64,000 bases of DNA, taken from NCBI GenBank assembly GCA_016785955.1, contig JAEUWH010000113.1:1-64000 (forward strand), read 5' to 3'. Position numbers and translations under genes: made by a program. The stretch's first letter is position 1; every line of letters starts with the position of its first letter. The notes under the pieces were generated by a model that searched no databases, was not told the origin of the DNA, and saw nothing but the letters and a program-made list of their open reading frames with translations. Shown here piece by piece: positions 1,081 through 19,806 of this stretch. The stretch is from Pseudobdellovibrionaceae bacterium. Its GTDB lineage: Bacteria; Bdellovibrionota; Bdellovibrionia; Bdellovibrionales; Bdellovibrionaceae.

Positions 1081-1232
1081 TTTTCGGGAATGATTAAAAT
1101 TGTGACAGGTAAAATTATAATCACTTCTGAAAAAATCATCTCTCTTGACAGAGCAAGTAAAGAAACCATTAGTAAAAATGAATAAACTATAATTAAAAAA
1201 TATCTCAAATCTCACATCCTTGAAAATTTAAT

Positions 1233-3092: not shown

Positions 3093-3151
3093 ATGAATTA
3101 TATATTAATTACTATCGACTGATATAACAACTAAAAATGATTAGAACTGAT

Positions 3152-4054: not shown

Positions 4055-4069
4055 CAATACCCCTCCTTC

Positions 4070-4675: not shown

Positions 4676-4755
4676 ATAATATCTCCTTTTACTTGATTAT
4701 CGCCAATTCTAATGCATAAATAAATAATAACAAAAGTAAGGATTCCATACTTATT

Positions 4756-5688
4756 ATGAATGCATATAATTTTAATCATCTTTATTACTTTTATATCACT
4801 GCGAAACTTGAGGGTATTACCGTCGCGGCAAAACACTTAAATACAAGCCAGTCGTCTCTGAGCGTTCAAATTAAGAATTTAGAGCACAACATTGGCAAGT
4901 CTCTTTTTAAAAAAGTTGGTCGACATATCGAGTTGACAGAGGACGGAAAAGAGTTGTTTCAATTTTGCAGAAGAGGTTTTGAGGCTTTTGAAGAAATGTC
5001 AGATCATGTTCAAAAGTCAAAGACCGCAATGGGCGTGAGGCTTAACATTGGCGTCTCGTCCGATATTGATCGTCCATTTATTACTGAAGTAATTGCCAAA
5101 GTAATTCGAAGCAAACCTTTGCGAAAACAGCCTTTGATTAAGTTAATTTCTAAGGAATCGGCAGTTGTGTTGGATCTTCTGAAGGCTGGTGAAATTGATT
5201 TTGCAATTACCACAAATGCCACCATAGACGGGCAAATTAAGTTACATAAAGAATTAATTTTCCCAGTTATGGCATTTGCCTCTAAAGAGGTTCTAGTCAA
5301 TTTGAAGAAAAAAACGGCCGCTGAGGCACTTAGAGAACAATCGGTCGGCGCCGTATTGCCATCCAAACCGACTATCCTAAGAGCCGAAATCGAATCCTAT
5401 TTTGTAAAACGAAAATTTTGGCCAGTGGTAACCTTTGAAAGCAATATTATGGCTTCTGTTATTCGCGCAGCAATTGATGGCCTTGGCATCGCCCTACTTC
5501 CAACAGTTTATGTGAGTAGGGAATTAAAATCAGATAAATTATTTTCATTTTCATCTGACATTTTATGGAAACATAGACTAATGATTGTGTCCCAAAATAG
5601 CAGATTACCTGAAGAAAAAGCATCAATTCTTGAACAGCTTTTAGAAGATCTGCAAAAATTGATTAACTCTGAAAAAAAGAAGCCCTAA
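4756..5688 (+). CDS. LysR-family transcriptional regulator
   Basis: 310 residues, the usual LysR length. The N-terminal winged HTH spans about 5-65 with HLYYFYITAKLEGITVAAKHL followed by NTSQSSLSVQIKNLEHNIGKSLFKK. The opening HLYYFY is similar to the NhaR-like subgroup. The remainder fits the periplasmic-binding-like effector domain, for example LLKAGEIDFAITT and AAIDGLGIALLPTVYV. It is divergent from the sodB unit and one base ahead of the DUF389 gene. It may control one or both neighbours; this is inferred from position only. No inducer can be predicted. Confidence 0.88.
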   Translation: MNAYNFNHLYYFYITAKLEGITVAAKHLNTSQSSLSVQIKNLEHNIGKSLFKKVGRHIELTEDGKELFQFCRRGFEAFEEMSDHVQKSKTAMGVRLNIGVSSDIDRPFITEVIAKVIRSKPLRKQPLIKLISKESAVVLDLLKAGEIDFAITTNATIDGQIKLHKELIFPVMAFASKEVLVNLKKKTAAEALREQSVGAVLPSKPTILRAEIESYFVKRKFWPVVTFESNIMASVIRAAIDGLGIALLPTVYVSRELKSDKLFSFSSDILWKHRLMIVSQNSRLPEEKASILEQLLEDLQKLINSEKKKP

Positions 5689-5689
5689 A

Positions 5690-6994
5690 ATGAATCTAAG
5701 AAAATTTAATAAGATATTTTTAAGCACCTATATCAAGATTCGCAGACTACTTGATTTAAAAGAAGATTTTGATGAAATGGGTGCTCGCGATTCAATTATA
5801 GAAAATATTGAATTTAAAAGCGGAAATGCCTGGGGATTAATTTTTGCGATTCTTGTTGCTTCTGTTGGTTTGCACGTAAATTCAACTGCAGTTATCATCG
5901 GCGCCATGCTTATATCTCCCTTAATGGGCCCAATAGTCGGTGCTGGGTTTTCTTTGGCTGTCCATGATTTTGAAAATTTAAAGCGATCAGTTTTAAATTT
6001 ATCCTACGCCGTAGCAATTAGTATAATAACGTCTGCTCTATTTTTTTCTCTTGCTCCGTCATCTGGCGCTCATTCTGAACTCATCGCAAGAACTCAACCT
6101 AATTTTTACGATGTACTAATTGCATTGTTTGGAGGAGCTGCGGGAATCGTTGCTAGCACAAGAAAAAGTAAAAGTAATGCAATCCCAGGTGTTGCTATCG
6201 CAACCGCTCTAATGCCACCCCTTTGCACTGTTGGATACGGGCTGGCGAATTTTACACCCACTTATTCGATTGGCGCTCTTTACCTATTTTTAATAAATAC
6301 GCTATTTATTTTCTTATCCACATATGTTTTCGTAAGATTTCTTAATTTTCGTACTGAAGTAGACAAAGATCCAGAACGAGATAAGCGTATTCATAAATGG
6401 ATGGGATTTGCAGCCATACTCATTGTTATACCTAGTATTTTTATGGTCTGGTATCTTCATAAAAGGACCTCTTTTGAAGTTGGTGTGAATTCATTTATAG
6501 AAAATGAAATCGCAAGCCACAAACTAATTGTTGGAAAATCTAAAGTGAATTTTAGTATTAAGCAATCAAGCGTAAATATTAAAATTTTTGGCGATACCTA
6601 CAGCGAATCAGAAATTTTGAATTTAACGAAAATTTTGAATGAGAAGTACGGAATCAATGATGTTGATCTCACAATTAAGAATGAAGAGCCTGATGTACTA
6701 AAAGAGGCTGATCTTGATCAAAAATATCTTTCAAAACAGGAATTTTTGAACTTTCAGCAATCTAGATTAAAAAATGAGATGAACGAACTTATTGAATCTA
6801 TAAACACGTTCAATCAATTCGAGAGCGGCCATTATGGTGGCAACAGCTATACTTTGGCGATCAATAATGAATCTGCAAAGCCCATAATCGAAGTTCAATG
6901 GGCGAAAAAGCCAAAATCAAATGAAATTAAAAAAGCTGAAGTCTTGATTTCCCAAATTCTTTTAAAACATAAATATTCATTTCTACACAAATAA
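5690..6994 (+). CDS. DUF389 family membrane protein
   Basis: 434 residues. The N-terminal ~260 residues hold six or so membrane segments and the DUF389 hallmark: GNAWGLIFAILVASVGLHVN then STAVIIGAMLISPLMGPI and ATALMPPLCTVGYGLA. A soluble C-terminal half of ~170 residues follows, rich in Lys, Glu and Asn, with a BON-like pattern around SIKQSSVNIKIFGDTYSESEILN. Function of the family is not established. The start is one base after the LysR stop, implying translational coupling. Confidence 0.85.
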   Translation: MNLRKFNKIFLSTYIKIRRLLDLKEDFDEMGARDSIIENIEFKSGNAWGLIFAILVASVGLHVNSTAVIIGAMLISPLMGPIVGAGFSLAVHDFENLKRSVLNLSYAVAISIITSALFFSLAPSSGAHSELIARTQPNFYDVLIALFGGAAGIVASTRKSKSNAIPGVAIATALMPPLCTVGYGLANFTPTYSIGALYLFLINTLFIFLSTYVFVRFLNFRTEVDKDPERDKRIHKWMGFAAILIVIPSIFMVWYLHKRTSFEVGVNSFIENEIASHKLIVGKSKVNFSIKQSSVNIKIFGDTYSESEILNLTKILNEKYGINDVDLTIKNEEPDVLKEADLDQKYLSKQEFLNFQQSRLKNEMNELIESINTFNQFESGHYGGNSYTLAINNESAKPIIEVQWAKKPKSNEIKKAEVLISQILLKHKYSFLHK

Positions 6995-7084
6995 TACGAA
7001 ATTAGTATTTATACGATATTTTAGTTCTATTTTTCATACAACTTCATTTTGTGTATTCTGATATCACAAAAAGAAGGGAGTTGT

Positions 7085-7363
7085 ATGAATTGTGTTTATG
7101 AAAATTTTTTACCGACCAGCTCTACAGTTAGGCAATGTTCTTATTTATTAAATCAGATTCAAAAAAACATTTCTGCTAGAAATGTATCCAGCAGAATTAT
7201 TCGTTTGAATCGCAATCAGTATCGAGCATGGATAAAAATTGAAAAACTGAATGGAGAGCATGAGGTTACTACATTAGGAAAAACAGTCAATGATTGCTTT
7301 TCCGAAGCAATCGATCTTGCAAAAAGCACCGATCGCAAATTTGAAAATATAATTACTAATTAA
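7085..7363 (+). CDS. Small cytoplasmic protein, possibly S30AE/HPF-like
   Basis: 92 residues from the ATG at 7085, chosen because AAGGGAG lies just upstream; an ATG 36 bp earlier has no such site. No signal peptide or membrane segment. The second half (YRAWIKIEKLNGEHEVTTLG, then DCFSEAIDLAKSTDRKFEN) has the strand-strand-helix order and the EAIDLA-type helix found in ribosome hibernation factors, but the similarity is weak and I do not claim the family. It lies between the DUF389 gene and a secreted protein gene. Confidence 0.6.
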   Translation: MNCVYENFLPTSSTVRQCSYLLNQIQKNISARNVSSRIIRLNRNQYRAWIKIEKLNGEHEVTTLGKTVNDCFSEAIDLAKSTDRKFENIITN

Positions 7364-7376
7364 GGAGGATTATAAA

Positions 7377-7772
7377 ATGTCAAAAACGTTACTTAGAACT
7401 TTAGCAATAGCATTCGTTTCTTTAGGAATAAATTTGAACAGCTATGGACAAACTGAAATCATAGGCTCACGGCTACCGTCTGAATTGGTGGTAGATAAGA
7501 ATTATGGAAACCATGAAGATGTGCAAATTACTTTAAACGGAATATTCCCAAACGGATGTTATCAAAAAGGTGAGACTTTAGTCGAGAAAGTTGGAAACGA
7601 AATTTTTATTAAAAATAGAGTTGTTTTTCATAAGGATACAATGTGCACGATGGCTTTGATTCCATATTCAGACTCTATTCAAATCCACAATTTAGAGATA
7701 GGAAAACACATCGTCTTTGTAAAAGATAAGTTTGGAAACTACCAACAGATTAAGTCTTTTATTTTAAATTGA
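7377..7772 (+). CDS. Secreted protein of unknown function
   Basis: 131 residues. The start is preceded by AAGGAGGAT. An N-terminal signal peptide is visible (hydrophobic core LLRTLAIAFVSLGINL, likely cleavage after SYG-Q near residue 25). The mature part is beta-rich with two cysteines (in NGCYQKG and DTMCTMAL), which could form a periplasmic disulfide. I do not recognise a family. It follows the preceding small gene by 13 bp, so they are probably cotranscribed. Confidence 0.65.
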   Translation: MSKTLLRTLAIAFVSLGINLNSYGQTEIIGSRLPSELVVDKNYGNHEDVQITLNGIFPNGCYQKGETLVEKVGNEIFIKNRVVFHKDTMCTMALIPYSDSIQIHNLEIGKHIVFVKDKFGNYQQIKSFILN

Positions 7773-7868
7773 TCTATTTTTGCTATGGATCGCATATTTT
7801 CTATATAGTTTTGTATTTGTATAAAGTGTCCGAAAATAGAGATGAATGATTAACTAAAAGGAGAAAAA

Positions 7869-8237
7869 ATGAAGACGAAATTAAGATTTGTAGGATTAGA
7901 AGCATTTTCCCATCACAGAGACTACATTTTCGATATTCTAGATACTACAATTGCTAGATTTGATTTAAATGATAAATTCCAGAGTGAAATTGTAGTCCGT
8001 AAAGAGTCAAAAAAATACAATCCGAATATTGAATTTTACACTTGCGAAATTAATTTTTTCGGTGACCGAAGGCGCGGACATTTGTTTTTCAAAAAAACAA
8101 GCAAGAACTTCTATGAGGTTGTTAAGAAAACATTGGCAGCCGCTGAAAAATCTCTAAGACGAGAGTCTAAAACTAGACTCTCAAGAATGAGAAAACTTTG
8201 TATCATCCCAAACAACATACAATTAACAGCGGCTTAG
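7869..8237 (+). CDS. Small protein resembling ribosome hibernation factors
   Basis: 122 residues with a strong ribosome site (AAAAGGAGAAAAA). The order of predicted elements (strand RFVGLEAF, long helix HHRDYIFDILDTTIARFD, strands with QSEIVVRKE, EFYTCEINFFG and RRGHLFFKK, then helix YEVVKKTLAAAEKSLRR) follows the beta-alpha-beta-beta-beta-alpha plan of S30AE/HPF proteins. The closing helix with paired basic residues is like DKLERQLRK in that family. This is a fold-level guess, not a family match. The C-terminus is strongly basic, consistent with RNA binding. Confidence 0.6.
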   Translation: MKTKLRFVGLEAFSHHRDYIFDILDTTIARFDLNDKFQSEIVVRKESKKYNPNIEFYTCEINFFGDRRRGHLFFKKTSKNFYEVVKKTLAAAEKSLRRESKTRLSRMRKLCIIPNNIQLTAA

Positions 8238-8247
8238 AGGAGGAAAA

Positions 8248-8754
8248 ATGAAAAAAGAAAACAATAATGATCAAAACCTAAAAAAGATCTTAATGGATCG
8301 ATTGAATTGGGATTTCAGGGTCAGCAAATCAGATGTCAAATTATTTGTCAAAAATGGGATCGTAGCCATTTACGGATACTTTGATAAAAATTTTCGTAGA
8401 GCCGCGGCGATAGAGACGATTGCTTCAACTCAAGGAGTGCTGGCTACAATTGATAATACTCAGGTTTTAGGCGATTACCATCGAAGCGATACGGAGCTTG
8501 AAACGATTCTTGAAAAGCGATTACTCGATCAAAAGTTGACTCATGGAGAATGGGTTAAACTCAATGTTCAAGATGGCGTAGTGACATGGGAAGGATCAGT
8601 TTGTCAGTCAAGATTCAAAGCTTGGATATCTAAAATTACTTGGGAGCTTTCAGGAGTAAAGGACTGTTATAACTTTGTAAGGATTGTAAGTTCGCGTCCA
8701 AACGAGTCACAGATTCAGATTTCTGATATGTTACATGAAGCAGTGATTCAATGA
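8248..8754 (+). CDS. Protein with two BON domains
   Basis: 168 residues preceded by GAGGAGGAAAA. Two tandem BON-type repeats are visible: about 10-75 (LKKILMDRLNWDFRV, IVAIYGYFDKNFRRAAAI, STQGVLATIDNTQV) and 82-150 (ELETILEKRLLDQ, VVTWEGSVCQSRFKAWI, LSGVKDCYNFV). BON domains occur in OsmY-like stress proteins and in secretins. There is no signal peptide, so this copy seems cytoplasmic, unlike OsmY. It is 10 bp after the HPF-like gene and ends the plus-strand stress-type group. Confidence 0.75.
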   Translation: MKKENNNDQNLKKILMDRLNWDFRVSKSDVKLFVKNGIVAIYGYFDKNFRRAAAIETIASTQGVLATIDNTQVLGDYHRSDTELETILEKRLLDQKLTHGEWVKLNVQDGVVTWEGSVCQSRFKAWISKITWELSGVKDCYNFVRIVSSRPNESQIQISDMLHEAVIQ

Positions 8755-8838
8755 TTTCTTGCCCCTCCCTGTAAACTTGATCTTCAATTCAATACCGGCT
8801 TCTTTTTAAAAACTTCAATCGATTAACTTTAACAAGAA

Positions 8839-8858
8839 GGTGGCGGGTTCCCGCCACC
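8839..8858 (+). terminator. GC-rich hairpin after the BON gene
   Basis: Nearly loop-free inverted repeat GGTGGCGGG TT CCCGCCACC, 85 bp after the BON stop codon. It stands out in AT-rich DNA. There is no clean T-run after it, so it may be a weak terminator or an RNA stability hairpin at the 3' end of the stress-type transcript. Confidence 0.5.
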
Positions 8859-8911
8859 CATTCGTAAGTAAAATCTTAAAAATTTCAATCACTTGTCCTT
8901 GAGTAAAAGAT

Positions 8912-8928
8912 CGGTGACAAAGTGACCG
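8912..8928. promoter_or_regulatory. Imperfect palindrome, candidate activator site
   Basis: CGGTGACAAAGTGACCG reads as an inverted repeat with one mismatched pair per arm. It lies about 95-110 bp upstream of a sigma54-like -24/-12 element, the usual distance of enhancer sites bound by NtrC-type activators such as the one encoded directly downstream. Assignment is by position and symmetry only. Confidence 0.4.
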
Positions 8929-9021
8929 TGAATTTACTACATGAATAAAGCTTAAAATGTCAGTCCAAATCAAATCATGTCATCTATATTAGACCTGGAA
9001 ACGTTAAGTTAAGTGAATTGC

Positions 9022-9038
9022 TAGGCACCAATCTTGTA
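9022..9038 (+). promoter_or_regulatory. Candidate sigma54 (-24/-12) promoter
   Basis: AGGCACCAATCTTGT matches the TGGCAC-N5-TTGC consensus in the GG dinucleotide and in spacing, but has TTGT instead of TTGC at -12. It lies 27 bp upstream of the GTG start of a sigma54-dependent activator gene, so the operon may be self-activated. An AGGAGGGG-like ribosome site (GGAGGGG) lies between. Confidence 0.45.
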
Positions 9039-9064
9039 CTACGGCATATCGGAGGGGTACTTGG

Positions 9065-10453
9065 GTGAAGCATTGCATACTCTTAATAGACGATAACATT
9101 GCTTATCGTCGTTCAAAAACAGACTTCCTTGAAGACGAAGGCTTCTTCGTTCGCGCAGTCGAAAGCGGAGATGAAGGCATTGCCCTCATCCGACAGCATG
9201 TTTTTCCCTTTTCACTCGCATTGGTTGATTACCATATGCCGGATATGAAAGGACCACAAACGATTCAAAAAATTCGGGAGCTGGACCCAAACATTACGAT
9301 CTTAGCTTTATCTGGCGATGACTCAATTGAAGCCCATAACGAATCTTTGGAATCGGGAGCTGTTTTCTTTGTCGGTAAAGACGTCGGCGAAGCCAAATTC
9401 CTTGGGATACTTCATCGAGCCTGTCGCGAAATCGAAAGACGCACCAAACCTGTCGTTATCGCTCCACATAATGAGAACCAGAAACTGATCGCATCCGTTG
9501 GGATGGTTGGCGTATCCGAGGCTATGGCCGAAGTCGCAAGGTTAATTTTAAAATTTGCTCCTTCCTCTGATTCCGTGCTCATACGAGGCGAAAATGGCAC
9601 TGGGAAAGAACGTGTCGCTAGAGGCATCCATCAAAATTCAAATAGAAAAACAAAGCCTTTTGTTGCTGTGAACTGTGCTGCTATTCCAGAAAATTTGATT
9701 GAGAGCGAACTATTCGGTCATGAAAAGGGAGCCTTCACAGGAGCAATACGACCGCGGATCGGACACTTTGAAGCTGCGGACGGAGGAACAATATTTTTGG
9801 ATGAAATCGGAGAAATGCCGAAGCATCTGCAAGCAACCCTTCTTAGGGTCTTGCAAGAGAAGACGATTACTCCAGTTGGCGCTGTTACAAGTCGGAAGGT
9901 TGATTTCAGATTGATCTCAGCAACCAATGCGGATCTTGAAACACTCATCGCAGAAAAAAGCTTTCGCGAAGATCTATTCTTTCGACTTAATGTTCTACCT
10001 ATCAACATTAAGCCGCTTCGTGATCGTCCAGAAGATATTCCAGTTTTAGCGCACTCGTTCTTAGAAAAAGTTAATCAGGAGTCTGGAGAGCGGAAAGTAT
10101 TGCTCGAAAGTGCTGCCGAAGAACTTCAAAAAATGAAGTGGCCTGGGAATGTTCGTGAACTTGAACATTGCATACGCTTTCTTGCGAATATGTCTTCAGA
10201 AAAGACCTTGGATGCCAGCCTATTAAAGAGCCGCAGCGATCTGAATAGGCCGAAGCAAAAACCAGCCGATTTAGAGGCACTCAAATTCACGCAAATGTCT
10301 TCTGAGAAGACTTTGGTTTTGAAGGCTCTTGAGCAAGGTGGAAATATTTCCGCAGCGGCCCGGATTTTAAATATCAGCCGAAGCACTGTCCGAGAGAAAA
10401 TGAAGAAGTACGATATAGAGTTCAAACCACTTACCGAGGGGGTAGAAGTATGA
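9065..10453 (+). CDS. Sigma54-dependent response regulator, NtrC class
   Basis: 462 residues from a GTG start preceded by GGAGGGG. Receiver domain about 1-122: acidic pair D9/D10, phospho-acceptor D55 in LVDYHMPDMKG, and the conserved lysine in FFVGKD. AAA+ domain about 145-380: Walker A GENGTGKE (175-182), the sigma54-contact loop GAFTGA (222-227), Walker B TIFLDEIGE and arginine-rich FREDLFFRLNVLP. C-terminal Fis-type HTH about 426-450 (NISAAARILNISRSTVREKM). All activator elements are intact. MSSEKTL occurs twice in the linker (376-382 and 411-417). It heads a five-gene operon whose last gene is a hybrid histidine kinase, its likely partner. Confidence 0.93.
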   Translation: MKHCILLIDDNIAYRRSKTDFLEDEGFFVRAVESGDEGIALIRQHVFPFSLALVDYHMPDMKGPQTIQKIRELDPNITILALSGDDSIEAHNESLESGAVFFVGKDVGEAKFLGILHRACREIERRTKPVVIAPHNENQKLIASVGMVGVSEAMAEVARLILKFAPSSDSVLIRGENGTGKERVARGIHQNSNRKTKPFVAVNCAAIPENLIESELFGHEKGAFTGAIRPRIGHFEAADGGTIFLDEIGEMPKHLQATLLRVLQEKTITPVGAVTSRKVDFRLISATNADLETLIAEKSFREDLFFRLNVLPINIKPLRDRPEDIPVLAHSFLEKVNQESGERKVLLESAAEELQKMKWPGNVRELEHCIRFLANMSSEKTLDASLLKSRSDLNRPKQKPADLEALKFTQMSSEKTLVLKALEQGGNISAAARILNISRSTVREKMKKYDIEFKPLTEGVEV

Positions 10454-10734
10454 AAAAGAAAATCTTAATAGTTGTAGCAGCCTTAATTGGAGTGAACGTC
10501 ACTGCGTTTGCTGATGCCGAACAGGCCAAGAATTTAACACCACTTCAAAAAGCGCAGATCGCTTGGGCCATCAGAATTTTGGGTGAAACAAAAACACTGA
10601 CGATCGATCAAAATCAGTGTGTTGAGTTCGACCAAGACATTTTAAATGTCCTTGAAGCCGATGGTCATATTCAATCAGGTGGGGCAAAGCCCTCGTCTAT
10701 ATGCGTAGGTGCCAACGGTGGAATTACAAAGTAG
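10450..10734 (+). CDS. Small secreted two-cysteine protein
   Basis: 94 residues. Its ATG overlaps the regulator stop (ATGA), with GAGGGGG upstream. The signal peptide is clear: KKK then ILIVVAALIGVNVTAFA, cleavage likely after A21. The mature ~73 residues begin DAEQAKNLTPLQKAQIAW, contain a short amphipathic helix, and carry two cysteines, C57 and C85, the second in a Gly/Ser-rich tail (SGGAKPSSICVGANGG). I recognise no family. Encoded between a sigma54 regulator and a peptide-binding protein, it could be a secreted signal, a sensor accessory protein or a substrate; these are guesses from context. Confidence 0.75.
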   Translation: MKKKILIVVAALIGVNVTAFADAEQAKNLTPLQKAQIAWAIRILGETKTLTIDQNQCVEFDQDILNVLEADGHIQSGGAKPSSICVGANGGITK

Positions 10735-10739
10735 TATAT

Positions 10740-12278
10740 ATGAAAAAGGTAAACTTTAAGATCATGCCAATTGTTGGCCTTGCGGTTTTTGCAGCGGGAG
10801 CAGTTTTTATGAAATCATCAAACTATGAGAGAACTTTACGAGTTGCATTTCCAGTTAAGTTGAAAGCAGCGGCGTATGAGCCAACAAATATCAATCTCGA
10901 TCACGAATACATTTTTTTAGAGAATGTCTTTTCACCACTTGTGGAGATCTCAAAAGATGGATCTATCGAATCCGGTGTGGCTGAAAAAATGGATTGGATA
11001 GGAGACGAATTAAAACTGACTATCAGAAAAACATTAAAGACAGCTTCTGGAAAACAGATCACTCCCGATGACGTTGTCTTTTCCCTGAAGCGATTATTGG
11101 TTCTTTCCGGAAATACTCACGGTAATTTCAAGGACATTGTTTGCCCAGGGGTAAACTTGAAAACTGTAGAAGATGACTGCCCTGGAATTAGAAAAGACCA
11201 AGACAGTGTTTTTCTGAATGCCAAAGGTCGAAAATCTTTTTTGATGCCGATGCTTGGAGCTATTGATTTTGCTGTAATTCCCAGAGCGAGCGTCGATCCG
11301 AAGACTTTGAAGATAGTTGATTTTTCTGAAACCAGCGGACCTTATTGGTTAGAGAAAGAAGATGAATCGGGAGAGGCTACACTGAAGCTAAACCCGCATC
11401 ACTATTTTGCATCAAAGAAAGTCGCGGAAAAAATCATCTTTGTTCCTACGGATACAACGAAGCCTGAAAGTAGCTTGAAAGATTTAGAAGAAGGTCGTGT
11501 TGACCACTTAACAACAATTGATGCGTCGAAAGCAGATAAGATTATTCGCTTTGCGCAGAAGCATCCAGACTTTGAAAGTCACGTTACAATGAAAATTCGT
11601 AGCCTATTCATTGTTTTCACAGAACGAGGACGCAAAGAACTGTCTTCTGATGAACGTCGTTATATTGGCGACAAGGTGAAAACCGTATTTTCTTCGATCT
11701 ACGCAGAGATTCCTGGTTTTGAGCAGCGAGCTGAGTTTTTTCCGAGTCTCGGCGAAGGTGGCCTTACTCAAACACAACGAAAAAAATTAGAATCTATGCG
11801 TGAGTTGAAGAAAGAAGAACCAAAGAAGAACTTCAAAATCGGGATAATCAAAAGAACTGGCTATGAAGAGTGGGCGAATCCTATCGCGGCTGCTTTGCCA
11901 CAGGCCGAGTGCTACAAGGAGACGAACGTTCCTGATTTCAAGAAGTATGATAAGTCAGACGATGTTCCTCATGCATGGATCGCCTCTACTGATACGGGAT
12001 TCATGGAAGACATCAGTTTGATTTCTTATTCTCTCAACGCTGGTCTACTGGGGCTGTCAAAGGAACAGCGATCTAAATGGTTAGCTGATTATATGGCGAC
12101 CGACGACAAAGGCTCACGCATCAATAAGCTCAAAGAACTGCACTACCAAGCCCTCGCAGAACCAGCCATTGTTCCGTTGATTGCCTCTCCGTATGCTGCA
12201 CTGGCAAGAAAACCTTGGAAGATCGAACTTTCAGATCTTTACGCAAATAATCAATTATGGCGAATCACACTCCGCTAG
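10740..12278 (+). CDS. Family-5 extracellular solute-binding protein (peptide type)
   Basis: 512 residues from the ATG at 10740, five bases after the preceding stop; an upstream in-frame ATG at 10701 lies inside the previous gene. One N-terminal hydrophobic stretch (IMPIVGLAVFAAGAVFM) acts as signal or anchor; no lipobox. The body follows the DppA/OppA plan: LENVFSPLVEISKDGSIESG near the start, then LTIRKTLKTASGKQITPDDV and VFSLKRLL. There are no ABC permease or ATPase genes in the operon, so it may not feed a dedicated transporter and could act as a periplasmic peptide sensor. Its 3' end overlaps the YcaO gene by 22 bp. Confidence 0.82.
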   Translation: MKKVNFKIMPIVGLAVFAAGAVFMKSSNYERTLRVAFPVKLKAAAYEPTNINLDHEYIFLENVFSPLVEISKDGSIESGVAEKMDWIGDELKLTIRKTLKTASGKQITPDDVVFSLKRLLVLSGNTHGNFKDIVCPGVNLKTVEDDCPGIRKDQDSVFLNAKGRKSFLMPMLGAIDFAVIPRASVDPKTLKIVDFSETSGPYWLEKEDESGEATLKLNPHHYFASKKVAEKIIFVPTDTTKPESSLKDLEEGRVDHLTTIDASKADKIIRFAQKHPDFESHVTMKIRSLFIVFTERGRKELSSDERRYIGDKVKTVFSSIYAEIPGFEQRAEFFPSLGEGGLTQTQRKKLESMRELKKEEPKKNFKIGIIKRTGYEEWANPIAAALPQAECYKETNVPDFKKYDKSDDVPHAWIASTDTGFMEDISLISYSLNAGLLGLSKEQRSKWLADYMATDDKGSRINKLKELHYQALAEPAIVPLIASPYAALARKPWKIELSDLYANNQLWRITLR

Positions 12279-13054
12279 CCTCGTGGCTTTATTCCAAACG
12301 GACCGAGTTGAGCGCTCGATTTCGAGAGTTCAACTGGCCTTCACGGATCTTTCCGGGCGTCTTCGACTTTGAGACCACGATTAGCTGGCAAGGTATCGAG
12401 GCGAATGGTCGAGGCGTTGATTCGAGCAGAGAAATTGCTCTGGAAAAGTCCGTTGCCGAAGCCATTGAGCGTTTAATTTGTCTAACTTTAGGATTTGATT
12501 CCGTCGGCTTTGCTATCGCCGGAACGCACGATCCGTCTCAACACGCGAAAAACGAATGCCTAGAAAGATTCTTCCTTAATGAACACTTGAAAAATGGCAC
12601 TTCACTTTACAACTTAAACGTGGATTTTCCTGAAGCAGAGAAATTAAAGAGACTAGCACCAACGGCTGAAGTCAGCTTTTACAGAATGAATACACCGAAA
12701 AATCTTTTTGGCATCTCTTGCCGTATTCATTTGGCTGATTCAAAGAAAACGTCTTTAGGCTTTGCACTTTCTGAAACTTTAGACCATGCGGCACGACGTT
12801 CTTTCTTTGAAGCACTTCCCAGTTTTGCATGGCTAGCTTCAGTCGAAAAACTTGAATTGAATGAGCTTCCTTGGCATTTGAAGACTGAGTTTATCGAAAA
12901 ACTAGAATCGTTATTTGCTGAGGATGACAGACTTAAGGCAGATCAAATGAAATCTCCCTCCCTATCATCCATCGAGCTAGATTTGACCTCGTTACCTATT
13001 TTTGAAGGCGCACCGATCCAGACAGCTCGCTACCAGATTGCGAGTTTAGAATGA
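12257..13054 (+). CDS. Compact YcaO-domain protein
   Basis: 265 residues, shorter than most YcaO proteins (about 400 or more). ATP-site motifs of the family are visible: GRGVDSSREIALEKSVAEAI followed by ERL (E68, E71, R72) and HAKNECLERFF (E100, E103, R104), with the typical TLGFDSVGFAIAG between them and LGFALSETLDHAARRSFFEA near residue 170. YcaO enzymes use ATP to activate peptide backbone amides, making azolines or thioamides. No partner dehydrogenase or E1-like gene is nearby. The start overlaps the binding-protein gene and its stop overlaps the kinase gene (ATGA), so it is tightly coupled to both. Substrate unknown. Confidence 0.75.
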   Translation: MANHTPLASWLYSKRTELSARFREFNWPSRIFPGVFDFETTISWQGIEANGRGVDSSREIALEKSVAEAIERLICLTLGFDSVGFAIAGTHDPSQHAKNECLERFFLNEHLKNGTSLYNLNVDFPEAEKLKRLAPTAEVSFYRMNTPKNLFGISCRIHLADSKKTSLGFALSETLDHAARRSFFEALPSFAWLASVEKLELNELPWHLKTEFIEKLESLFAEDDRLKADQMKSPSLSSIELDLTSLPIFEGAPIQTARYQIASLE

Positions 13055-14619
13055 AAATCCAGTCACCTGGGCAAAGAATAAAAGCCTTCGAGCAAAAACA
13101 GGTCATTGTGTCTGGTTTGTGCTTTTTATTTCTTGCGGGGTTAGCGGTCGTATTCAATGCGCTTCATTTACAAAATGTCGCAGAGGAAAATACTCGATTC
13201 CTCTCCCGCATGGTTAAAATTGGAGACTTTCGAGAAGCCAGTTTGATTTTGCAACAAGCTAGGCTTTCGAGCTTCACGATGATTCACTATAGATCAACAG
13301 AGCCGGGTCGTTCTTTTGTCATCCCTCCAAAGGCTGAGATTTTCAAAGAAGACAGCTATTTGAACAAAATTCTACGAGACGAAATCGCCGTTCGAGTTGA
13401 TGTTAGCACAGCAACTCATTCTGGCGATGAAATTATATTTGAATACGAACGTTTCCGACTTGTGCCCTATGCGATTTTGATTTGGTTCATTTTGAACATG
13501 ATCTCGATTCCCCAGACACGCTTTTTGAAACGTCGCCTATTGGAGCAATTTGACCGTGATATTGAAATTGAAAAGAAAATTGCAAAAACTGAAGTGGCTC
13601 AACAAGTTCGTCATAATCTTAGAACTCCACTGGCAGCTTTAATGCACATTCCAAGTAAGCTTCCCAAAAGCGTGACCCGAGAACGCGAGCTTCTGGAGCT
13701 AACCATCGGCCAAATCCGCGACCTAATCTCAAAGCTTGATGATCGTCCAAATAATGGGTTTGATGAGGTTTACTCTACCGATATTTACAGCACGCTAGAA
13801 CAAGCGAAACGCGAGTTGACCGCCGCTTCTCCGAAAAGCATCGAATTTATCTTCGATACTGAGGACATTGTTGCATCAGCACTTGTGAAACACATTCCAT
13901 TTGAGTTGCGATCTATCTTGGGAAACATCGTCAACAATTCTATTGAGGCCATGAATTCAACTGGAAAAATCTTTGTACGGATTCGAGATCTTGCATCTGA
14001 AATTTCTATTTCTGTATCTGACAATGGAATCGGAATTAAACCAGAAAGTTTGCCTAAAGTTTTTCAGAAACATTTCTCTGAAGGGAAATCGAATGGATCT
14101 GGTATTGGTCTCTCTCACGCAAAAGAAAATGTTGAAGCATGGGGTGGCCGCATCGGAGTTGAATCAACATCGAATATTGGAACGACTGTAACTGTGAATC
14201 TTCCAATCGTAGATCGAGCTGAATGGTATTTGCCTAGACTCAAATTTAATTCTTCGTCAAAGATCGTTGTAATCGACGATCAGGATTCAGCTTTAGAACT
14301 CTGGAAAATAAAGTTTGAAGAGTCGCAGATTCTTTCTCAAGTGAGGCTATCGACAGATTCGCAAAGTTTAAATATCGATTCATCTCTGTTGGGCAAATCC
14401 GCTAAAGACTTTACCTATTTGATAGATCACGACCTATCTTCTAAAGTTTCAGGATTTGAGCTTTTGACGAGGCTTCCAAACGAATCGTTACGTTGTTTAG
14501 TTACTGGTAATTTCGATGATACAAATTTAAGAGCTTCTTGTGAAGCCACCGGCGTTTACATCATTCCCAAAAGTTGCATTTCTACTTTACCTGTGGTGGT
14601 AACAAGTCCCATGCTTTAA
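13051..14619 (+). CDS. Hybrid sensor histidine kinase
   Basis: 522 residues. Two membrane helices (about 18-38 and 139-155) flank a ~100-residue periplasmic sensing region without a recognised fold. The dimerisation/phosphorylation segment has H188 in QVRHNLRTPLAAL. The ATPase domain shows the N box LGNIVNNSIEAM, G1 SDNGIGI and G2 GSGIGLSHAKENVEAWGG. The last ~120 residues form a receiver-like domain (KIVVIDDQDSA, YLIDHDLSSKVSGFELL with acceptor D459 or D461, LVTGNF, IPKS). It overlaps the YcaO gene by 4 bp and is the likely cognate kinase of the operon's sigma54 response regulator. Confidence 0.92.
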   Translation: MKIQSPGQRIKAFEQKQVIVSGLCFLFLAGLAVVFNALHLQNVAEENTRFLSRMVKIGDFREASLILQQARLSSFTMIHYRSTEPGRSFVIPPKAEIFKEDSYLNKILRDEIAVRVDVSTATHSGDEIIFEYERFRLVPYAILIWFILNMISIPQTRFLKRRLLEQFDRDIEIEKKIAKTEVAQQVRHNLRTPLAALMHIPSKLPKSVTRERELLELTIGQIRDLISKLDDRPNNGFDEVYSTDIYSTLEQAKRELTAASPKSIEFIFDTEDIVASALVKHIPFELRSILGNIVNNSIEAMNSTGKIFVRIRDLASEISISVSDNGIGIKPESLPKVFQKHFSEGKSNGSGIGLSHAKENVEAWGGRIGVESTSNIGTTVTVNLPIVDRAEWYLPRLKFNSSSKIVVIDDQDSALELWKIKFEESQILSQVRLSTDSQSLNIDSSLLGKSAKDFTYLIDHDLSSKVSGFELLTRLPNESLRCLVTGNFDDTNLRASCEATGVYIIPKSCISTLPVVVTSPML

Positions 14620-14692
14620 ATTTTTCTCAGCTTCTTCTGCCTTGCAATAAAGACAAGTGAATTCAGATAATAGCAAGTGCTTGAAAAATTCC

Positions 14693-14720
14693 AAAGAGCA
14701 ATCGTATAAAAAAGCTCTTT
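14693..14720. terminator. Candidate terminator between convergent genes
   Basis: Inverted repeat AAAGAGC and GCTCTTT with a 14-nt loop, followed on the plus strand by AGAAAAAATTTT. It lies between the ends of the kinase gene and the opposing zinc-ribbon gene. The stem is short and the loop long, so support is weak. Confidence 0.35.
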
Positions 14721-14734
14721 AGAAAAAATTTTCG

Positions 14735-15172
14735 CTATGAACACAACTCCTCAACTTCGTCAGTACGGAAGTAAGTTGAACCACCATCGAAAGAGACAAT
14801 CGCACCTTCAGCCTCTTCGTTAGATTCGTGCTCAACGACGGCACAACGCCAAGCAATCGGATCATTTTCTTTCATGATTGTAACAGTATCAAACTCCATC
14901 CAACCAACCTTAGTCGTTTCTGGATAGCATTCGCGAATCATGTTCTCGAAAGATTCTTCAATATCGACAGGTGTGAGGTCAGTTTCAAGAATATGCTTGA
15001 TAACCCAATCTGTACCGTATTCGCAGCCAACACCATCCACCGAGCGCATAAGATCATCTGAACCGCATGATTTACAACGACCGGACGGACATTCATGGTA
15101 GCAGTTGTAGCAAAACGAAATTGAGCGATTGAAAGCAAGTTGAGTCAGTTTTTCTTTAAGTTCAGAGTTCAT
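14735..15172 (-). CDS. Small zinc-ribbon protein of unknown function
   Basis: 145 residues from the ATG at 15170-15172, chosen because AAAGGGAG lies just upstream; the frame extends further but without a ribosome site. A cysteine cluster near residues 21-36 (CYNCYHECPSGRCKSCGSDD) suggests a zinc ribbon. The rest is acidic (many Glu/Asp) with no signal peptide. I do not recognise a named family. It lies beside a recombinase-like fragment, so it probably belongs to a mobile or plasmid-derived module. Confidence 0.65.
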   Translation of the reverse strand: MNSELKEKLTQLAFNRSISFCYNCYHECPSGRCKSCGSDDLMRSVDGVGCEYGTDWVIKHILETDLTPVDIEESFENMIRECYPETTKVGWMEFDTVTIMKENDPIAWRCAVVEHESNEEAEGAIVSFDGGSTYFRTDEVEELCS

Positions 15173-15405
15173 GTTTATCTCCCTTTGATTGGGCTTTGCC
15201 TCTTGCTTGAGGAGCCCTTCACAGAAGGAGTGGGCTCCGAGAAGGCAAACCAGCTCTGGAGAAGATCGACCGCGCATCGACACGCGAATGCGGCAGGGCT
15301 CATGACAGATCCCGAAGGGGCTGGCGTGACGCCTGTGCGGAGATGCGAGAAAAGGGCGATCTTCGTAAGAGCGTCTATCCAGCAGGGAGATTTGAAGTCT
15401 GAGTC
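15173..15405. other. GC-rich non-coding block between small genes
   Basis: Markedly richer in G and C than its surroundings, with several potential hairpins: GAGCCC...GGGCTC around 15209-15235 and GGCG TGA CGCC around 15324-15334. Read on the minus strand it is the leader of the zinc-ribbon gene. No convincing gene was found in either direction. It could be a structured leader RNA or a relic of a mobile element. Confidence 0.4.
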
Positions 15406-15627
15406 TTAAAACTGAGTTGATTTTCTTTCCGACTTTTTCGTTTTTGCTTCTTGCTTGTCCGACTCACGCGGAAAAAATCGAGGGCTTCCCCAAGTCTCCG
15501 TGCGCGATTCATAAATAAGCTTGGCTTGCGCGCGCCAGATCAGAGTTTGAATTTTATCAAGATTCATAGTCAGCAAGAATGCGAGCACTACTCCGGCTGC
15601 AATGGTGATGAGTTTATCCAAATTCAT
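15406..15627 (-). CDS. Small single-span membrane protein
   Basis: 73 residues from the ATG at 15625-15627, preceded by AAAGGGGGAA. A hydrophobic segment at about 5-22 (LITIAAGVVLAFLLTMNL) acts as signal anchor; the rest is charged and basic (KTKKSERKS near the end). It overlaps the end of the recombinase-like gene by 14 bp, so translation is probably coupled. No family recognised. Confidence 0.6.
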   Translation of the reverse strand: MNLDKLITIAAGVVLAFLLTMNLDKIQTLIWRAQAKLIYESRTETWGSPRFFPRESDKQEAKTKKSERKSTQF

Positions 15628-16108
15628 ATTTTCCCCCTTTGGATAAGATGACTTGTTTGTTTTCAAATCGAGCGACGATGTTCTGAAGAGCTGCCCAGCT
15701 CCAACTTTTTCCCGTGCGAGATGGAAGCTTGGCTCGATTCAGTTCTAAATTTATCTGATGTATGGTTCGACCCTGACTCCAGAGACGATGGATTTTTTGA
15801 AGAGTCGGAAACTCCCTTGGGTCTTTTACGATCTTCCCTTCAAAGTAGCAGAAGCCATAATACGGTAGAGCCGCTTGCTTGCCTGACTTTAGCGAACGCT
15901 TGTGAGTGACTTTAGGAGCCGGATTGCGCAGCGCTTGCCCCGCTCGTAGGAGACTAGAGCGCACACCATTTTTCGACATTCCAAGCTGATTCGAGATGTC
16001 GCGAAGGGACATGCCTTTAGAGTACATTTCGACTATGTTTTTATTGTCTTCAGCAGAAATTCGCTTGCTGATTTTGACGATAAATGTGGTGAAATCAATA
16101 GCTTGCAA
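15614..16108 (-). CDS. Recombinase-domain protein lacking the catalytic domain
   Basis: 164 residues, start probably TTG at 16106-16108. Residues about 18-52 form an HTH of resolvase type (MYSKGMSLRDISNQLGMSKN). Residues about 80-150 (PYYGFCYFEGKIVKDPREFP, LWSQGRTIHQINLELNRAKL, WSWAALQNIVARF) match the 'recombinase' DNA-binding region of large serine recombinases. The N-terminal resolvase domain with the catalytic serine is absent, so it cannot recombine DNA alone. It may be a regulator or a remnant of a phage/ICE integration gene. It is first in a minus-strand trio with two small genes. Confidence 0.72.
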   Translation of the reverse strand: MQAIDFTTFIVKISKRISAEDNKNIVEMYSKGMSLRDISNQLGMSKNGVRSSLLRAGQALRNPAPKVTHKRSLKSGKQAALPYYGFCYFEGKIVKDPREFPTLQKIHRLWSQGRTIHQINLELNRAKLPSRTGKSWSWAALQNIVARFENKQVILSKGGKYEFG

Positions 16109-16194
16109 GAGTTCGGTTATTGGGAAGCGTGGTTCACCACATAATTTTTAGATGGTTTTTGGACCTACAACTTAGATTGGTTCTCCTCCAAAGA

Positions 16195-16552
16195 CAGGGG
16201 CAGTCACCTCTAGTCTTTCTTTAGATGAGCAGACTCAATCTTTGTCTATAGTAAAAGAGAATACTTCTACGGTTGCCTCTGGTAAAGCTGCGACATCACA
16301 AATTGTATCTATCAAAGAAATTAAACTTGGCGATCATGTTTTTCCTAAGAAAACCATCAACCGATCAAATGCGAATTTAGCAGGTCTAGATTTGCTAGGA
16401 TCGCTTATTTTTCAACAGGAGTCCTTTTTGATACAGGAGCCGACACGACAGTTATTAATAAACGATTCATTAGCGAACATCCAAATTTATTCAAATGGCT
16501 GAGAAAAGAAAAATGGTACTTACGTGCAACCACACTTCAAAACTACCCCAGA
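16195..16552 (+). pseudogene. Broken aspartic-protease-like gene
   Basis: One frame from about 16195 reads LGDHVFPKKTI and NLAGLDLLGS, then loses sense near 16400-16425. From 16427 another frame reads FDTGADTTVINKRFISEHPN up to a stop at 16550-16552. DTGAD is the catalytic motif of retropepsin-like (clan AA) aspartic proteases and GLDLLGS resembles their later LLGxDxL motif, although here it comes first. A frameshift plus absent start and flanks indicate a decayed gene. The rest of 16109-16785 holds nothing else I can support. Confidence 0.5.
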
Positions 16553-16785
16553 TAGCACAAAGCTGAATAATTGTTCACAACAAGGAAATATTAATCCTTA
16601 CAACGGAAAGAAGGGCTATAAAAAATGAAACTCCCTGTTCCATGATTATAATAATTCACCACGTTCTTGTCTCGTGGTCACATTTGGATCACTCAGTGCT
16701 CCAGCACTGGAGCACTTTGAGAAGATAAAAATGGAATTAAATGGTCTCTCTAGATTAAATTATAAAAAATTTAGCCGGAGGAACT

Positions 16786-18348
16786 ATGTTACTAAGTCAC
16801 AAGGCCACATCCTTATTACTAATTCTGCTTGTTGTGCAGAATTTATCACTAGCGCAAAGTGTATCTGAATTTCAAAAGTCGTATCTAGAAAAATATCCCG
16901 AAGCTATGACAGTCAATTTTGTTTCATCTTACTTTAAAAAAGACCAAAAATTTGGTTTTGGGAAGCAAGGTGGTGACCTAGCAAAAGCGCAAGTACTTGA
17001 AAATATACTCGCCTATTTTGATCGTGATGTGCAAGGAGCCTCTACTATAAATTATAAATACGAAGAAGAATTTGCATGTGACCAGATCAGTTTAGTCAAT
17101 ACAGAAGAAACGAAAGAAAAAACTCGCATAAAAACAGCGAATGAACACACTCAAACTATCACAACTGGATCAACTTTTATTTCCAAATCAGTAGCAACCG
17201 CTTCCATTGGCGATTCTGTCGTGCCATATGGATATGCCAGCGGAGCGTATGCTGGTGCCTATGCCTCTCAAGGCACTACCTACAATACTTATCGCAGAAT
17301 TTACAATTATACTCGTGTAACAACTCAATCTGAGTATGAGCGATATCAAGTTAGGCGTGATGTATTGTGTGTGAAAAAATCTAATGTTATCAGAGTTCGC
17401 GCCGAGGTGAGATTTTTTTCCGACAGAATTAAAGAATTTCATCCTGATATTTTGTCAGATTTTATTGAAAACCACACCAGGTGGACTTTAGATAGTTACT
17501 TGGCTACAGTCTCTTCAACCGCAAATCAGCTGAGACTCATTTTAAGAAATCCGTATTTAACTCAGAACTCTCTAGAAGTGAATTTCGGATCGAAAAACAT
17601 CGAAACATTAATTCTAAACATGAACAACCAGTTGAAGTATCTTACTGGCTTTGGAAAATTTAAAAACTTTATAGGTGGCATTCTGTCTGAGGAGGTTATC
17701 TTAAGAATTCAAAAAATTGATCGTGCAATGACAGACTTCACACATTTGCTTTTGAACTTAGAAAAAGGCGCTTTGTATGCGATGAGTGCCGTATCGTCTA
17801 ATGACTTTGACTTAATAGAAGTCATAAGCCACAACACCATTAACGAGCTTTCCGCTGCTGGTTATCGAGTTAAGTTTAATTTGCCTAATAAGATAAAAAA
17901 CTATTCCATGTGCATAGATAGAACTCTTCAAAAAGCAGCTCTTAACGAAGAGATCAAGCGTGAAACTTCGCTAACTGCAAAACAAGTTTTTAAGAAAGCT
18001 CGTGAATCATGGGACTCGCAACAATATCAAGATTTGGTCATGACAATCATAAAAAACGAAGATTTTTACCAGCTACCCGTTGGGATAATGTCTGAATTTC
18101 AAAAGGCTGCTGAGTTTTCTGATAAGTTACCAAAGACCAAAGATATTACAGACGCATGCATTGTTAAGTTTGATAAACAAAAAAAATCGAAAGAGATGCT
18201 TAGTGTATATTCTAAGTTTAAAGATTGTGTCGATAAATATTTGTCGGCATCCAAGAAGTGCTTAGTCTTACCGAATGCACAAGCCTTCCACTATACAGAA
18301 GAGATCTATTTAGATGCGCATATTATCTGTACATCTGAAACTGAATAA
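16786..18348 (+). CDS. Large secreted protein of unknown function
   Basis: 520 residues with ribosome site GCCGGAGGAACT. Signal peptide at 1-23 (ATSLLLILLVVQNLSLA, cleavage before QSV). Residues about 95-200 are Thr/Ser/Tyr-rich with low-complexity stretches (GYASGAYAGAYASQG), followed by a mainly helical C-terminal two thirds with scattered cysteines. No known domain recognised. It stands alone on its strand between mobile-element remnants and another secreted orphan. Probably periplasmic or surface located. Confidence 0.75.
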   Translation: MLLSHKATSLLLILLVVQNLSLAQSVSEFQKSYLEKYPEAMTVNFVSSYFKKDQKFGFGKQGGDLAKAQVLENILAYFDRDVQGASTINYKYEEEFACDQISLVNTEETKEKTRIKTANEHTQTITTGSTFISKSVATASIGDSVVPYGYASGAYAGAYASQGTTYNTYRRIYNYTRVTTQSEYERYQVRRDVLCVKKSNVIRVRAEVRFFSDRIKEFHPDILSDFIENHTRWTLDSYLATVSSTANQLRLILRNPYLTQNSLEVNFGSKNIETLILNMNNQLKYLTGFGKFKNFIGGILSEEVILRIQKIDRAMTDFTHLLLNLEKGALYAMSAVSSNDFDLIEVISHNTINELSAAGYRVKFNLPNKIKNYSMCIDRTLQKAALNEEIKRETSLTAKQVFKKARESWDSQQYQDLVMTIIKNEDFYQLPVGIMSEFQKAAEFSDKLPKTKDITDACIVKFDKQKKSKEMLSVYSKFKDCVDKYLSASKKCLVLPNAQAFHYTEEIYLDAHIICTSETE

Positions 18349-18651
18349 AGAAATGTTGACCATGCATTTTTGACAGTGCTCATTGATTTTATGAGCTTTA
18401 AAGTGGTCAAAAGAAGTGGACTTATCTGGGTTGGTAATGACAAATGACAACAATGATACACAATAAAGACCATGACGAACAGACTCTAGATCTCGCCGGA
18501 TACCTTTGGTGTCAAAATTGGATTGAGCAACAATCGACTCTTAACTTTTATACTTAACCGCGCCTGTTCGATGCCGTTAGTTAGAAAAAAGAATCCTTGA
18601 GACTATTCCCAAGAATATGTTTAAAGTCTTCACCATCAAGTGAGGTTCAAA
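18349..18651. other. Non-coding stretch with a weak hairpin
   Basis: No gene is supported in either direction. A 6-bp inverted repeat GCTCAT...ATGAGC at 18378-18396 lies 30 bp after the preceding stop and is followed by TTTAAAG. It may be a weak terminator. Confidence 0.35.
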
Positions 18652-19140
18652 ATGTTAAATTTTTCTACTTTTTTATTAGTGCTATTCAGTTGTATCAGTC
18701 ATTCAATCGCATATCCTAAATTTCCAGTTCAGAATGGTTTGCCTGCACCATTTCCAGTGACCAAAGAAAACATTTCTTTTAATCTTTTGCCTCACGAGCC
18801 CGGACCAACTTGGGAATGCCAGCATGAGCCCGTACCTAATTTGCCTTATGACTGGCGAGTGAGCTGCTTATCTCAAACATCCAAAGCTAAACTCAGTTTT
18901 CTAGTGCATTTTTTGGTTCGCGTACTGGGACAAAATAACGATATTTTGGAAGTGCTTTATTGGGTCGATGAATACCCATACGCGTTATATGGTCGAACAC
19001 TTCCACAAAGCCACGGCCAATCAACATTAGTGGGATTCCAGCACGGAATTCTTCCCAACAGGATGAGCTTAGGACAATTTGTTCAAAACGGTACGTCTAG
19101 CTTAAATATCCTCTATTCCAGTCAGAAAAGAAAAAAATAA
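18652..19140 (+). CDS. Small secreted protein of unknown function
   Basis: 162 residues from the ATG at 18652, six bases after AAGTGAGG; a GTG 12 bp upstream would overlap that site. Signal peptide at 1-19 (FSTFLLVLFSCISHSIA). The mature protein is Pro-rich near its start (FPVQNGLPAPFPV) and has two cysteines about 15 residues apart (TWECQHE, RVSCLSQ), which may pair in the periplasm. No family recognised. Confidence 0.65.
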   Translation: MLNFSTFLLVLFSCISHSIAYPKFPVQNGLPAPFPVTKENISFNLLPHEPGPTWECQHEPVPNLPYDWRVSCLSQTSKAKLSFLVHFLVRVLGQNNDILEVLYWVDEYPYALYGRTLPQSHGQSTLVGFQHGILPNRMSLGQFVQNGTSSLNILYSSQKRKK

Positions 19141-19166
19141 AAACTGTTTTTTTGGAGTAATAATAG

Positions 19167-19190
19167 GGCCTGCCCTCATTTTCCTAGCCG
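19167..19190 (+). repeat. 24-bp dispersed repeat, copy 1
   Basis: GGCCTGCCCTCATTTTCCTAGCCG recurs at 23146-23169 with two differences, and the ~9 bases before it are also similar (AT-rich). Both copies lie in intergenic DNA flanking the orphan-gene block. Function unknown. Confidence 0.6.
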
Positions 19191-19239
19191 TCGCGAGAAA
19201 ATGCAATTGGTTAGAGCCCGAGAAGCGAGGAGAAGAAAT

Positions 19240-19271
19240 AGAAAAAAGATCCCTCAAGGACGAACCTTGAG
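19240..19271 (-). terminator. Terminator formed by the last codons of the DUF1456 gene
   Basis: On the minus strand CTCAAGG TTCGT CCTTGAG is followed by GGATCTTTTTTCT. The hairpin uses the final codons and the stop (TGA) of the upstream gene, so coding and termination signals overlap. Confidence 0.65.
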
Positions 19272-19712: not shown

Positions 19713-19806
19713 CATTACTTACCTTATTGCTCACCTTGTTGCCTACCTTTATCAAAAAAGTATTCCTTACCCAAGCTAAATATGGGCACACAATGCTGAA
19801 ATAGGC

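Follow-up and report, generated by a model that had tools for sequence, protein, structure and literature searches.

Introduction

Enterococcal conjugative plasmids such as pCF10 are controlled by peptide pheromones, which bind the OppA-like protein PrgZ, are imported and act on a cytoplasmic receptor. In LuxPQ-type signalling, a binding protein and a hybrid kinase act on the sigma54 regulator LuxO. YcaO enzymes are found in azoline and thioamide pathways of ribosomally synthesized and post-translationally modified peptides (RiPPs). Bufferins and oxazolins are Sec-exported RiPPs modified by MNIO enzymes, and bufferins provide a precedent for Sec-exported modified precursors (PMC12452194). Here we describe a five-gene cassette at positions 9065-14619 of the first 64,000 nucleotides of contig JAEUWH010000113.1 from a Pseudobdellovibrionaceae bacterium (assembly GCA_016785955.1; this whole stretch is called the window), which encodes a sigma54-dependent response regulator, a small protein with a Sec-type signal, a family-5, OppA-like peptide-binding protein (substrate-binding protein, SBP), a YcaO-fold protein and a membrane histidine kinase.

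The cassette resembles the pCF10 system in having an element-borne OppA-like binding protein, a putative peptide signal and a link to conjugation, and in the PDB the SBP profile also matches PrgZ. In contrast to pCF10, it pairs the SBP with a membrane kinase and a sigma54 regulator, and it encodes a YcaO enzyme and a likely precursor within the unit. As in LuxPQ signalling, the gene of a periplasmic binding protein adjoins that of a membrane kinase and the pathway includes a sigma54 regulator, whereas the binder here is a family-5 peptide binder and the proposed signal gene, the YcaO gene and the regulator gene all lie in the unit. The YcaO fold, the Glu/Arg motifs and the small Cys-tailed candidate precursor recall YcaO-dependent RiPP pathways. 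Unlike in those pathways, a Pfam scan of the five genes found no E1-like protein, dehydrogenase, transporter or TfuA, in agreement with an earlier sequence-only reading of the window that had noted the absence of the first three; in addition, the precursor would carry a Sec-type signal where those pathways use an ordinary leader, and the YcaO gene lies between those of the SBP and the kinase. A Sec signal on a Cys-containing precursor is also described for bufferins and oxazolins, although the enzyme here is a YcaO and not an MNIO, only one Cys is constant, and the genes here are linked to those of an SBP and a kinase (PMC12452194).

In the literature searched, from which subscription papers were mostly absent, YcaO, pheromone and conjugation never appeared together, YcaO with sigma-54 and a histidine kinase appeared only in apparently unrelated work, and YcaO with Bdellovibrio or Bdellovibrionota only in a paper on a sponge metagenome; as far as that literature goes, the cassette is undescribed. 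We tentatively favour, with a little less than even confidence, a joint reading whose steps support each other, namely that the cassette is a self-contained peptide-signalling module on integrated conjugative elements of Bdellovibrionota.

Results

Five coupled genes form a conserved cassette

All five genes lie on the plus strand. The regulator gene (9065-10453) encodes receiver, AAA+ and Fis-type helix-turn-helix domains, matched by the Pfam models Response_reg, Sigma54_activat and HTH_8. Its end overlaps the start of the small-protein gene (10450-10734) by ATGA, and after a 5-bp gap the SBP gene (10740-12278) follows with an ATG at 10740; the open reading frame (ORF) list favours an upstream start at 10701. 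The YcaO gene (12257-13054) overlaps the SBP gene by 22 bp, and the kinase gene (13051-14619) overlaps the end of the YcaO gene by ATGA. The ORF list and the window sequence thus gave exactly the junctions of the sequence-only reading, and its claim of a coordinated unit coupled by overlapping or touching gene ends holds.

The gene order was then compared between genomes, as that reading had proposed, and it was kept. With the YcaO protein as query, relatives were found in 16 of 59 related genomes, several of which had more than one, and the order SBP-YcaO-kinase recurred in 26/26 further loci, with the regulator on the same strand in 20/26. Such recurrence places the arrangement beyond chance. 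Because the Pfam YcaO model was blind in this genome, a family profile was used for the wider search, and it matched in 124 of the 368 genomes of the phylum, the weakest matches possibly being other YcaOs. Forty further loci were opened from among the matches listed, leaving out many weaker ones, and the SBP adjoined YcaO in 34 of them, the exceptions being six weaker matches (L089-L093, L098); overall, SBP and YcaO were neighbours in 60/66 YcaO-anchored loci. The six exceptions are other Bdellovibrionota YcaO proteins with neither SBP nor kinase nearby.

Among SBP-linked loci, the kinase was absent only from L066 and L068, where the contig ends at the YcaO gene. An alternative order, YcaO-small protein-SBP-kinase with or without the regulator, was seen in L096, L100, L102 and L104. 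Before the tail-Cys, promoter, neighbour, YcaO-motif and SBP-tree counts, 18 duplicate loci (the same place in two collections) were removed; the unique SBP loci number 63. Because of a divergent gene, L044 was scored as regulator-bearing in this survey, whereas the VirB4 tally below treats it as regulator-less. In the SBP tree, close relatives were spread across different families of the order (the window clade with L024; L034 with L035), a pattern that would be expected from horizontal transfer. The 22 named records from an SBP search were Bdellovibrio or other Bdellovibrionota including Oligoflexia, one Silvanigrella and two possibly misbinned Elusimicrobia bins.

The fourth gene encodes a YcaO-fold protein

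The Pfam model PF02624 matched the fourth protein at E 0.013 and 15.3 bits, below its cut-off of 25.7, and the Pfam YcaO model gave zero matches in the whole genome; NCBIfam gave no match to this protein at E<=0.1. A profile built from 24 relatives, however, matched MJ1094 (2.3e-9) and McbD (4.1e-6). In a fold comparison with an AlphaFold2 model (mean predicted local distance difference test, pLDDT, 90.5), archaeal YcaO aligned over the whole length with Z 16.6 (239-240 residues), followed by LynD (16.3), MusD (15.9), McbD (15.6), E. coli YcaO (14.9) and TruD (10.7), while the next unrelated chain reached only Z 7.0. Family profile and fold rescued the YcaO assignment of the sequence-only reading, and the protein, as modelled, is a member of the YcaO fold despite the Pfam miss.

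The Glu/Arg motifs, which we take to be the ATP/Mg-binding motifs of YcaO at positions assumed from the family and aligned to MJ1094 and McbD, were highly conserved. Glu68, Arg72 and Glu100 were present in 64/64 SBP-linked YcaOs, Glu71 in 63/64, Glu103 and Arg104 in 62/64 each and Glu185 in 60/64, and the motifs were likewise kept in 6 SBP-unlinked control YcaOs. A full-length relative matched both the azoline-forming and the thioamidation models, each far below cut-off, and these matches do not single out one bond that the enzyme might modify.

The small protein resembles a peptide precursor

The small protein of the window has 94 residues, a Sec-type signal and two Cys, at positions 57 and 85. 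It had been described as a secreted two-Cys protein, and both Cys and the signal are there; in an alignment of 19 small proteins, only Cys85, near the C-terminus, was invariant (19/19), and Cys57 was not. This constancy of the C-terminal Cys alone disfavours the idea of a disulfide between the two. In 63/63 unique SBP loci, one or more short ORFs stood at the 5' end of the SBP gene, some of these ORFs being mechanical, and 57/63 loci had an ORF that passed a crude home-made signal-peptide rule; five of the six failing loci (L043, L045, L056, L068, L080, L108) have a tail Cys by eye.

The small proteins are hypervariable in sequence. A Cys within the last 20 residues was found in 48/57 of them, compared with 31/108 other small signal-bearing ORFs of the same loci, and in 39/42 of the core family and 9/15 of the distant group. 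In 40 core members with a tail Cys, the Cys was preceded by I, L, V or M in 30 and an upstream helix-Gly-x-hydrophobic motif was present in 34. No Pfam family and no NCBIfam match at E<=0.1 was found for the small protein. Its structural model was poor (pLDDT 55.7 overall, falling from 44 to 37 at the disordered tail end), as would be expected of an unfolded precursor, though this is weak evidence. From these sequence features, the small protein looks like a peptide precursor, and we propose it as the precursor of a signal.

Another use of such a product would be as an effector, perhaps a bacteriocin or a peptide that binds metal, with the SBP and kinase monitoring the product or a ligand. Some tails do resemble modified-peptide cores (GGGGGASCG in L102), and bufferins, which are modified Cys peptides exported through Sec, bind copper (PMC12452194). 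The unit has no immunity or export gene, however, a single constant Cys offers little for metal binding, and every complete locus has a dedicated peptide-binding protein and kinase, so that we regard an effector as unlikely.

The same genome has six YcaO profile matches, and the four that were opened (G000:C38, C3, C46 and C90) are full cassettes. They differ in their small-protein tails, which would suit parallel signalling channels.

The SBP and kinase resemble a peptide receptor

The SBP matched SBP_bac_5 at E 2e-10 in Pfam. Its profile found OppA-type proteins nearest in the PDB, with OppA3, AapF and OppA above PrgZ (4faj, E 7.8e-9), and PrgZ is therefore an analogue and not the closest relative. 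An N-terminal hydrophobic segment was present in 27/27 SBPs checked, and a Cys in residues 10-45 in 4/27, indicating that most of them are not lipoproteins. The Asp of OppA that contacts the peptide amine could not be transferred to the invariant D418 of the SBP, since the PDB alignments end before D418.

The kinase had been called a hybrid kinase, and its kinase part was supported by HATPase_c (1.5e-23), with HisKA at only E 0.044. Pfam found no receiver domain at E<=1, and the tail is receiver-like by eye only, as is the assignment of His188. Hydropathy placed two transmembrane segments (17-35 and 135-153) on either side of about 100 residues. Taken together, the sequences suggest that the SBP and the kinase form a receptor for a peptide. 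The peptide-sensing or peptide-making circuit that the sequence-only reading had thought plausible thus fits and has been sharpened to precursor and receptor roles; the making and sensing of a modified peptide are our interpretation of the sequences.

A candidate -24/-12 promoter of the sigma54 type, AGGCACCAATCTTGTA, lies at 9023-9038 on the plus strand, with a score of 11.9 of 15.5, and homologous loci have the same variant, with roughly equal spacing from the regulator gene that follows. Sites with similar scores had a shuffle p of 0.03-0.08 in related loci, and the window site alone is not significant. Before the first gene, 16/62 cassettes had a sigma54-type site at shuffle p<0.02, and full or near-full consensus sites were seen in several clades (L071, L078, L082, L096, L104, L038, L069). 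The shuffles preserved base composition only, and both the weights and the consensus are our own or assumed from general knowledge. We consider sigma54 autoregulation of the cassette likely.

Regulator-bearing cassettes are associated with transfer genes

Clustering of the neighbours of the 63 unique cassettes gave a VirB4-like ATPase in 18 loci, a pilin in 17, a TraL-like protein in 14 and a recombinase-like protein in 8. Pfam matched neighbours to TraC_F_IV/P-loop_TraG, TrbC/VirB2, VirB8 and CagX/VirB9, and to TrbL/VirB6 and TraL below cut-off; two related elements had a TraG/VirD4-type coupling protein and a large serine recombinase. The distance to VirB4-like genes was scored for 58 cassettes, the window included, from the matches listed in 43 genomes. 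Short partial matches and P-loop proteins of about 590-700 residues, probably coupling proteins, were left out; counting G099:C2:2509 would raise the regulator-bearing tally by one.

Among these matches, a VirB4-like gene lay within 20 kb of 27 of the 38 regulator-bearing cassettes and of none of the 20 regulator-less ones. Since nearness was accepted on any contig and its absence required 20 kb on both sides, the proportion of 27/29 among judged regulator-bearing cases is inflated. The difference was significant when the judged cases alone were compared (Fisher p 1.2e-6) and also in the conservative comparison of 27/38 with 0/20, which scores all remaining cases as not near (p 8.4e-8).

Three cassettes about 90% identical to that of the window lie 11.6-18.6 kb from a VirB4-like ATPase, and contig C4 of the window's own genome (G000:C4) carries tra genes closely similar to those near related cassettes. 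In the window, homology to the loci of these three cassettes covers about 8907-14623 and is followed by scattered element genes with differing sequence between them. The shared sequence ends at 16139 in three insertions, each with a different flank. This common end together with the element homology identifies the unit as one module of a larger mobile element; the window copy lies in the right-hand part of an integrated element (1-16139) whose left part is cut off by the contig start at base 1. At its right end, a minus-strand gene (15614-16108) encodes a Recombinase domain (PF07508, E 3.5e-6), and L131 and L133 have similar genes at the corresponding end. It is highly probable, judging from these comparisons, that the cassette is a conserved module, mobile in most regulator-bearing cases.

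Other carriers and roles were rejected. An SBP alignment search found no relative in viral contigs, plasmids gave none with the YcaO query nor with the SBP at E<=1e-20, and PADLOC, as a guide to a defence role, matched only the AAA part of the regulator.

Proposed mechanism

In the mechanism we favour, the small protein would be made with its Sec signal, and before export the YcaO enzyme would spend ATP to modify the backbone at the Cys-containing C-terminal tail. In the periplasm the tail, attached or cleaved, would be bound by the OppA-like SBP, and the loaded SBP would act on the periplasmic domain of the kinase. The kinase would then phosphorylate the sigma54 regulator, which would switch on the cassette's own -24/-12 promoter, for which promoter-like sites are seen, and in some elements might also activate a divergent transfer operon through a -24/-12-like site, as in three loci. 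The element could thereby gauge kin elements or neighbours ahead of transfer. We hold the chances even that YcaO acts on the small protein, and equally balanced that the tail of the small protein is the ligand of the SBP; control of element transfer by the cassette seems slightly favoured by the sequence comparisons.

A bolder and more doubtful proposal is a signalling system of a categorically new kind. One cassette would both produce a peptide pheromone, the first to be modified by a YcaO and exported through Sec, and detect it by means of an SBP and a membrane kinase; each genome would have several such channels in parallel, specific for different tails, through which the conjugative elements of Bdellovibrionota could perceive one another and turn on their transfer via sigma54. 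If true, YcaO peptide chemistry would meet peptide control of conjugation, YcaO would be added to the handful of enzymes that modify precursors exported through Sec, and the Bdellovibrio group would gain a counterpart of the enterococcal pheromone plasmids. Mobile DNA would also have a means of sensing its environment that is new, and the small cassette would offer dozens of natural signal-receptor pairs for specificity tests.

Evidence against the proposed signalling module and competing explanations

Several observations weigh against this mechanism, and the first concern catalysis. The sequence-only reading had named missing active-site residues as a possible objection; the Glu/Arg motifs are kept, but the C-terminus of the window protein is short. 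The C-terminal HP-containing segment is present in 28/64 SBP-linked YcaOs and missing in the window clade, and residue 188 is Pro in that clade and Arg in 34/64. The C-terminal segment of YcaO has a role in catalysis, and its loss weakens the claim of catalysis while it leaves fold membership intact. YcaO might have become non-catalytic and serve as a regulatory partner, perhaps of the kinase, that binds ATP or peptides, in a sensor without modification; the SBP would then detect ordinary peptides, for instance those from degraded prey, and the small protein would be a co-receptor. The shortening and Pro188 fit such a sensor, the small protein goes with the SBP gene whichever of the two gene orders is present, and OppA-type SBPs bind peptides broadly. 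A non-catalytic YcaO need not keep the Glu/Arg motifs, yet each is kept in 60-64/64, and the tail Cys persists amid otherwise hypervariable small proteins; we consider this explanation rather unlikely, if worth serious attention. The tail Cys is itself absent in 9/57 small proteins, mostly of the distant group.

The link to transfer also has gaps. Of the regulator-bearing cassettes, two lack a VirB4-like gene within 20 kb, and nine fall in neither class, including the window because its contig starts at base 1. Regulator-less cassettes sit away from VirB4-like genes (eight of the 20 judged as not near, the other 12 in neither class) and need another role. No relaxase was found near the cassettes in searches for TrwC (0/19 genomes) and PF03432 (5/19 genomes, never on cassette contigs), with MobH and other types not searched; TraU was found in 0/16 genomes.

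The 'PWLNADG' gene family opens a divergent transfer operon in L071, L075, L082, L122 and L123, leading in L122 to a VirB4-like gene. A sigma54-type site (p<0.02) stood before the divergent gene in 3/6 loci (L071, L075, L082) and was not found before it in L038, L072 and L108. Other candidate first tra genes had such a site in 1/12 (L030, p<0.02), and none was found before the transfer operon of window-clade elements. General sigma54 control of the transfer operon is therefore rejected.

In a further explanation, mobile elements would merely carry the cassette as cargo, and it would serve the host and have no say over transfer; in favour of this, regulator-less versions lie near VirB4-like genes in 0/8 judgeable cases, and the window-clade operons are without the site. 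We think this improbable, since cassettes with the regulator go together with VirB4-like genes, and the cassette is retained where the cargo around it varies between elements. For the signalling module itself, modification, binding and sensing of the small protein are read from sequence and not from direct evidence, and transfer control is likewise an interpretation; conservation and mobility are seen in the sequences themselves.

Other features of the window and of related loci

A transposase gene (63-980; HTH_38, rve) stands at the contig start. The stretch 63-8754, likely cargo, encodes this transposase, an amino-acid permease, a short-chain dehydrogenase, an Fe/Mn superoxide dismutase, a LysR regulator, DUF389 and BON proteins; it is not common to related loci, and G000:C4 has a 75%-identical dismutase stretch. 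On the minus strand, 14735-15283 encodes a small element protein (likely ATG start at 15172) that lies at varying distance from the cassette in related elements and matched no Pfam family above cut-off. No tRNA was found in the window, and Rfam gave no match within positions 1-20000, where 53 direct and 68 inverted repeat families were counted, the largest among those listed being short and imperfect.

The single-contig genome G193:C1 carries two regulator-less cassettes at about 2.56 and 2.98 Mb (L076, L083) and no match to the VirB4-like query, and we conclude that this form has another role. Near another regulator-less cassette, L041:12533-14389 encodes two similar secreted-looking proteins that, by eye, presumably resemble trypsin-like proteases. 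Beside the regulator-less cassette of L046 (G007:C1), a CRISPR-like array at 12118-15500 has the repeat GTTCTGATTGGCTCACAGATTCCCATCTGTTATTCT every 65-66 bases, with 51 copies in the stretch searched and differing spacers.

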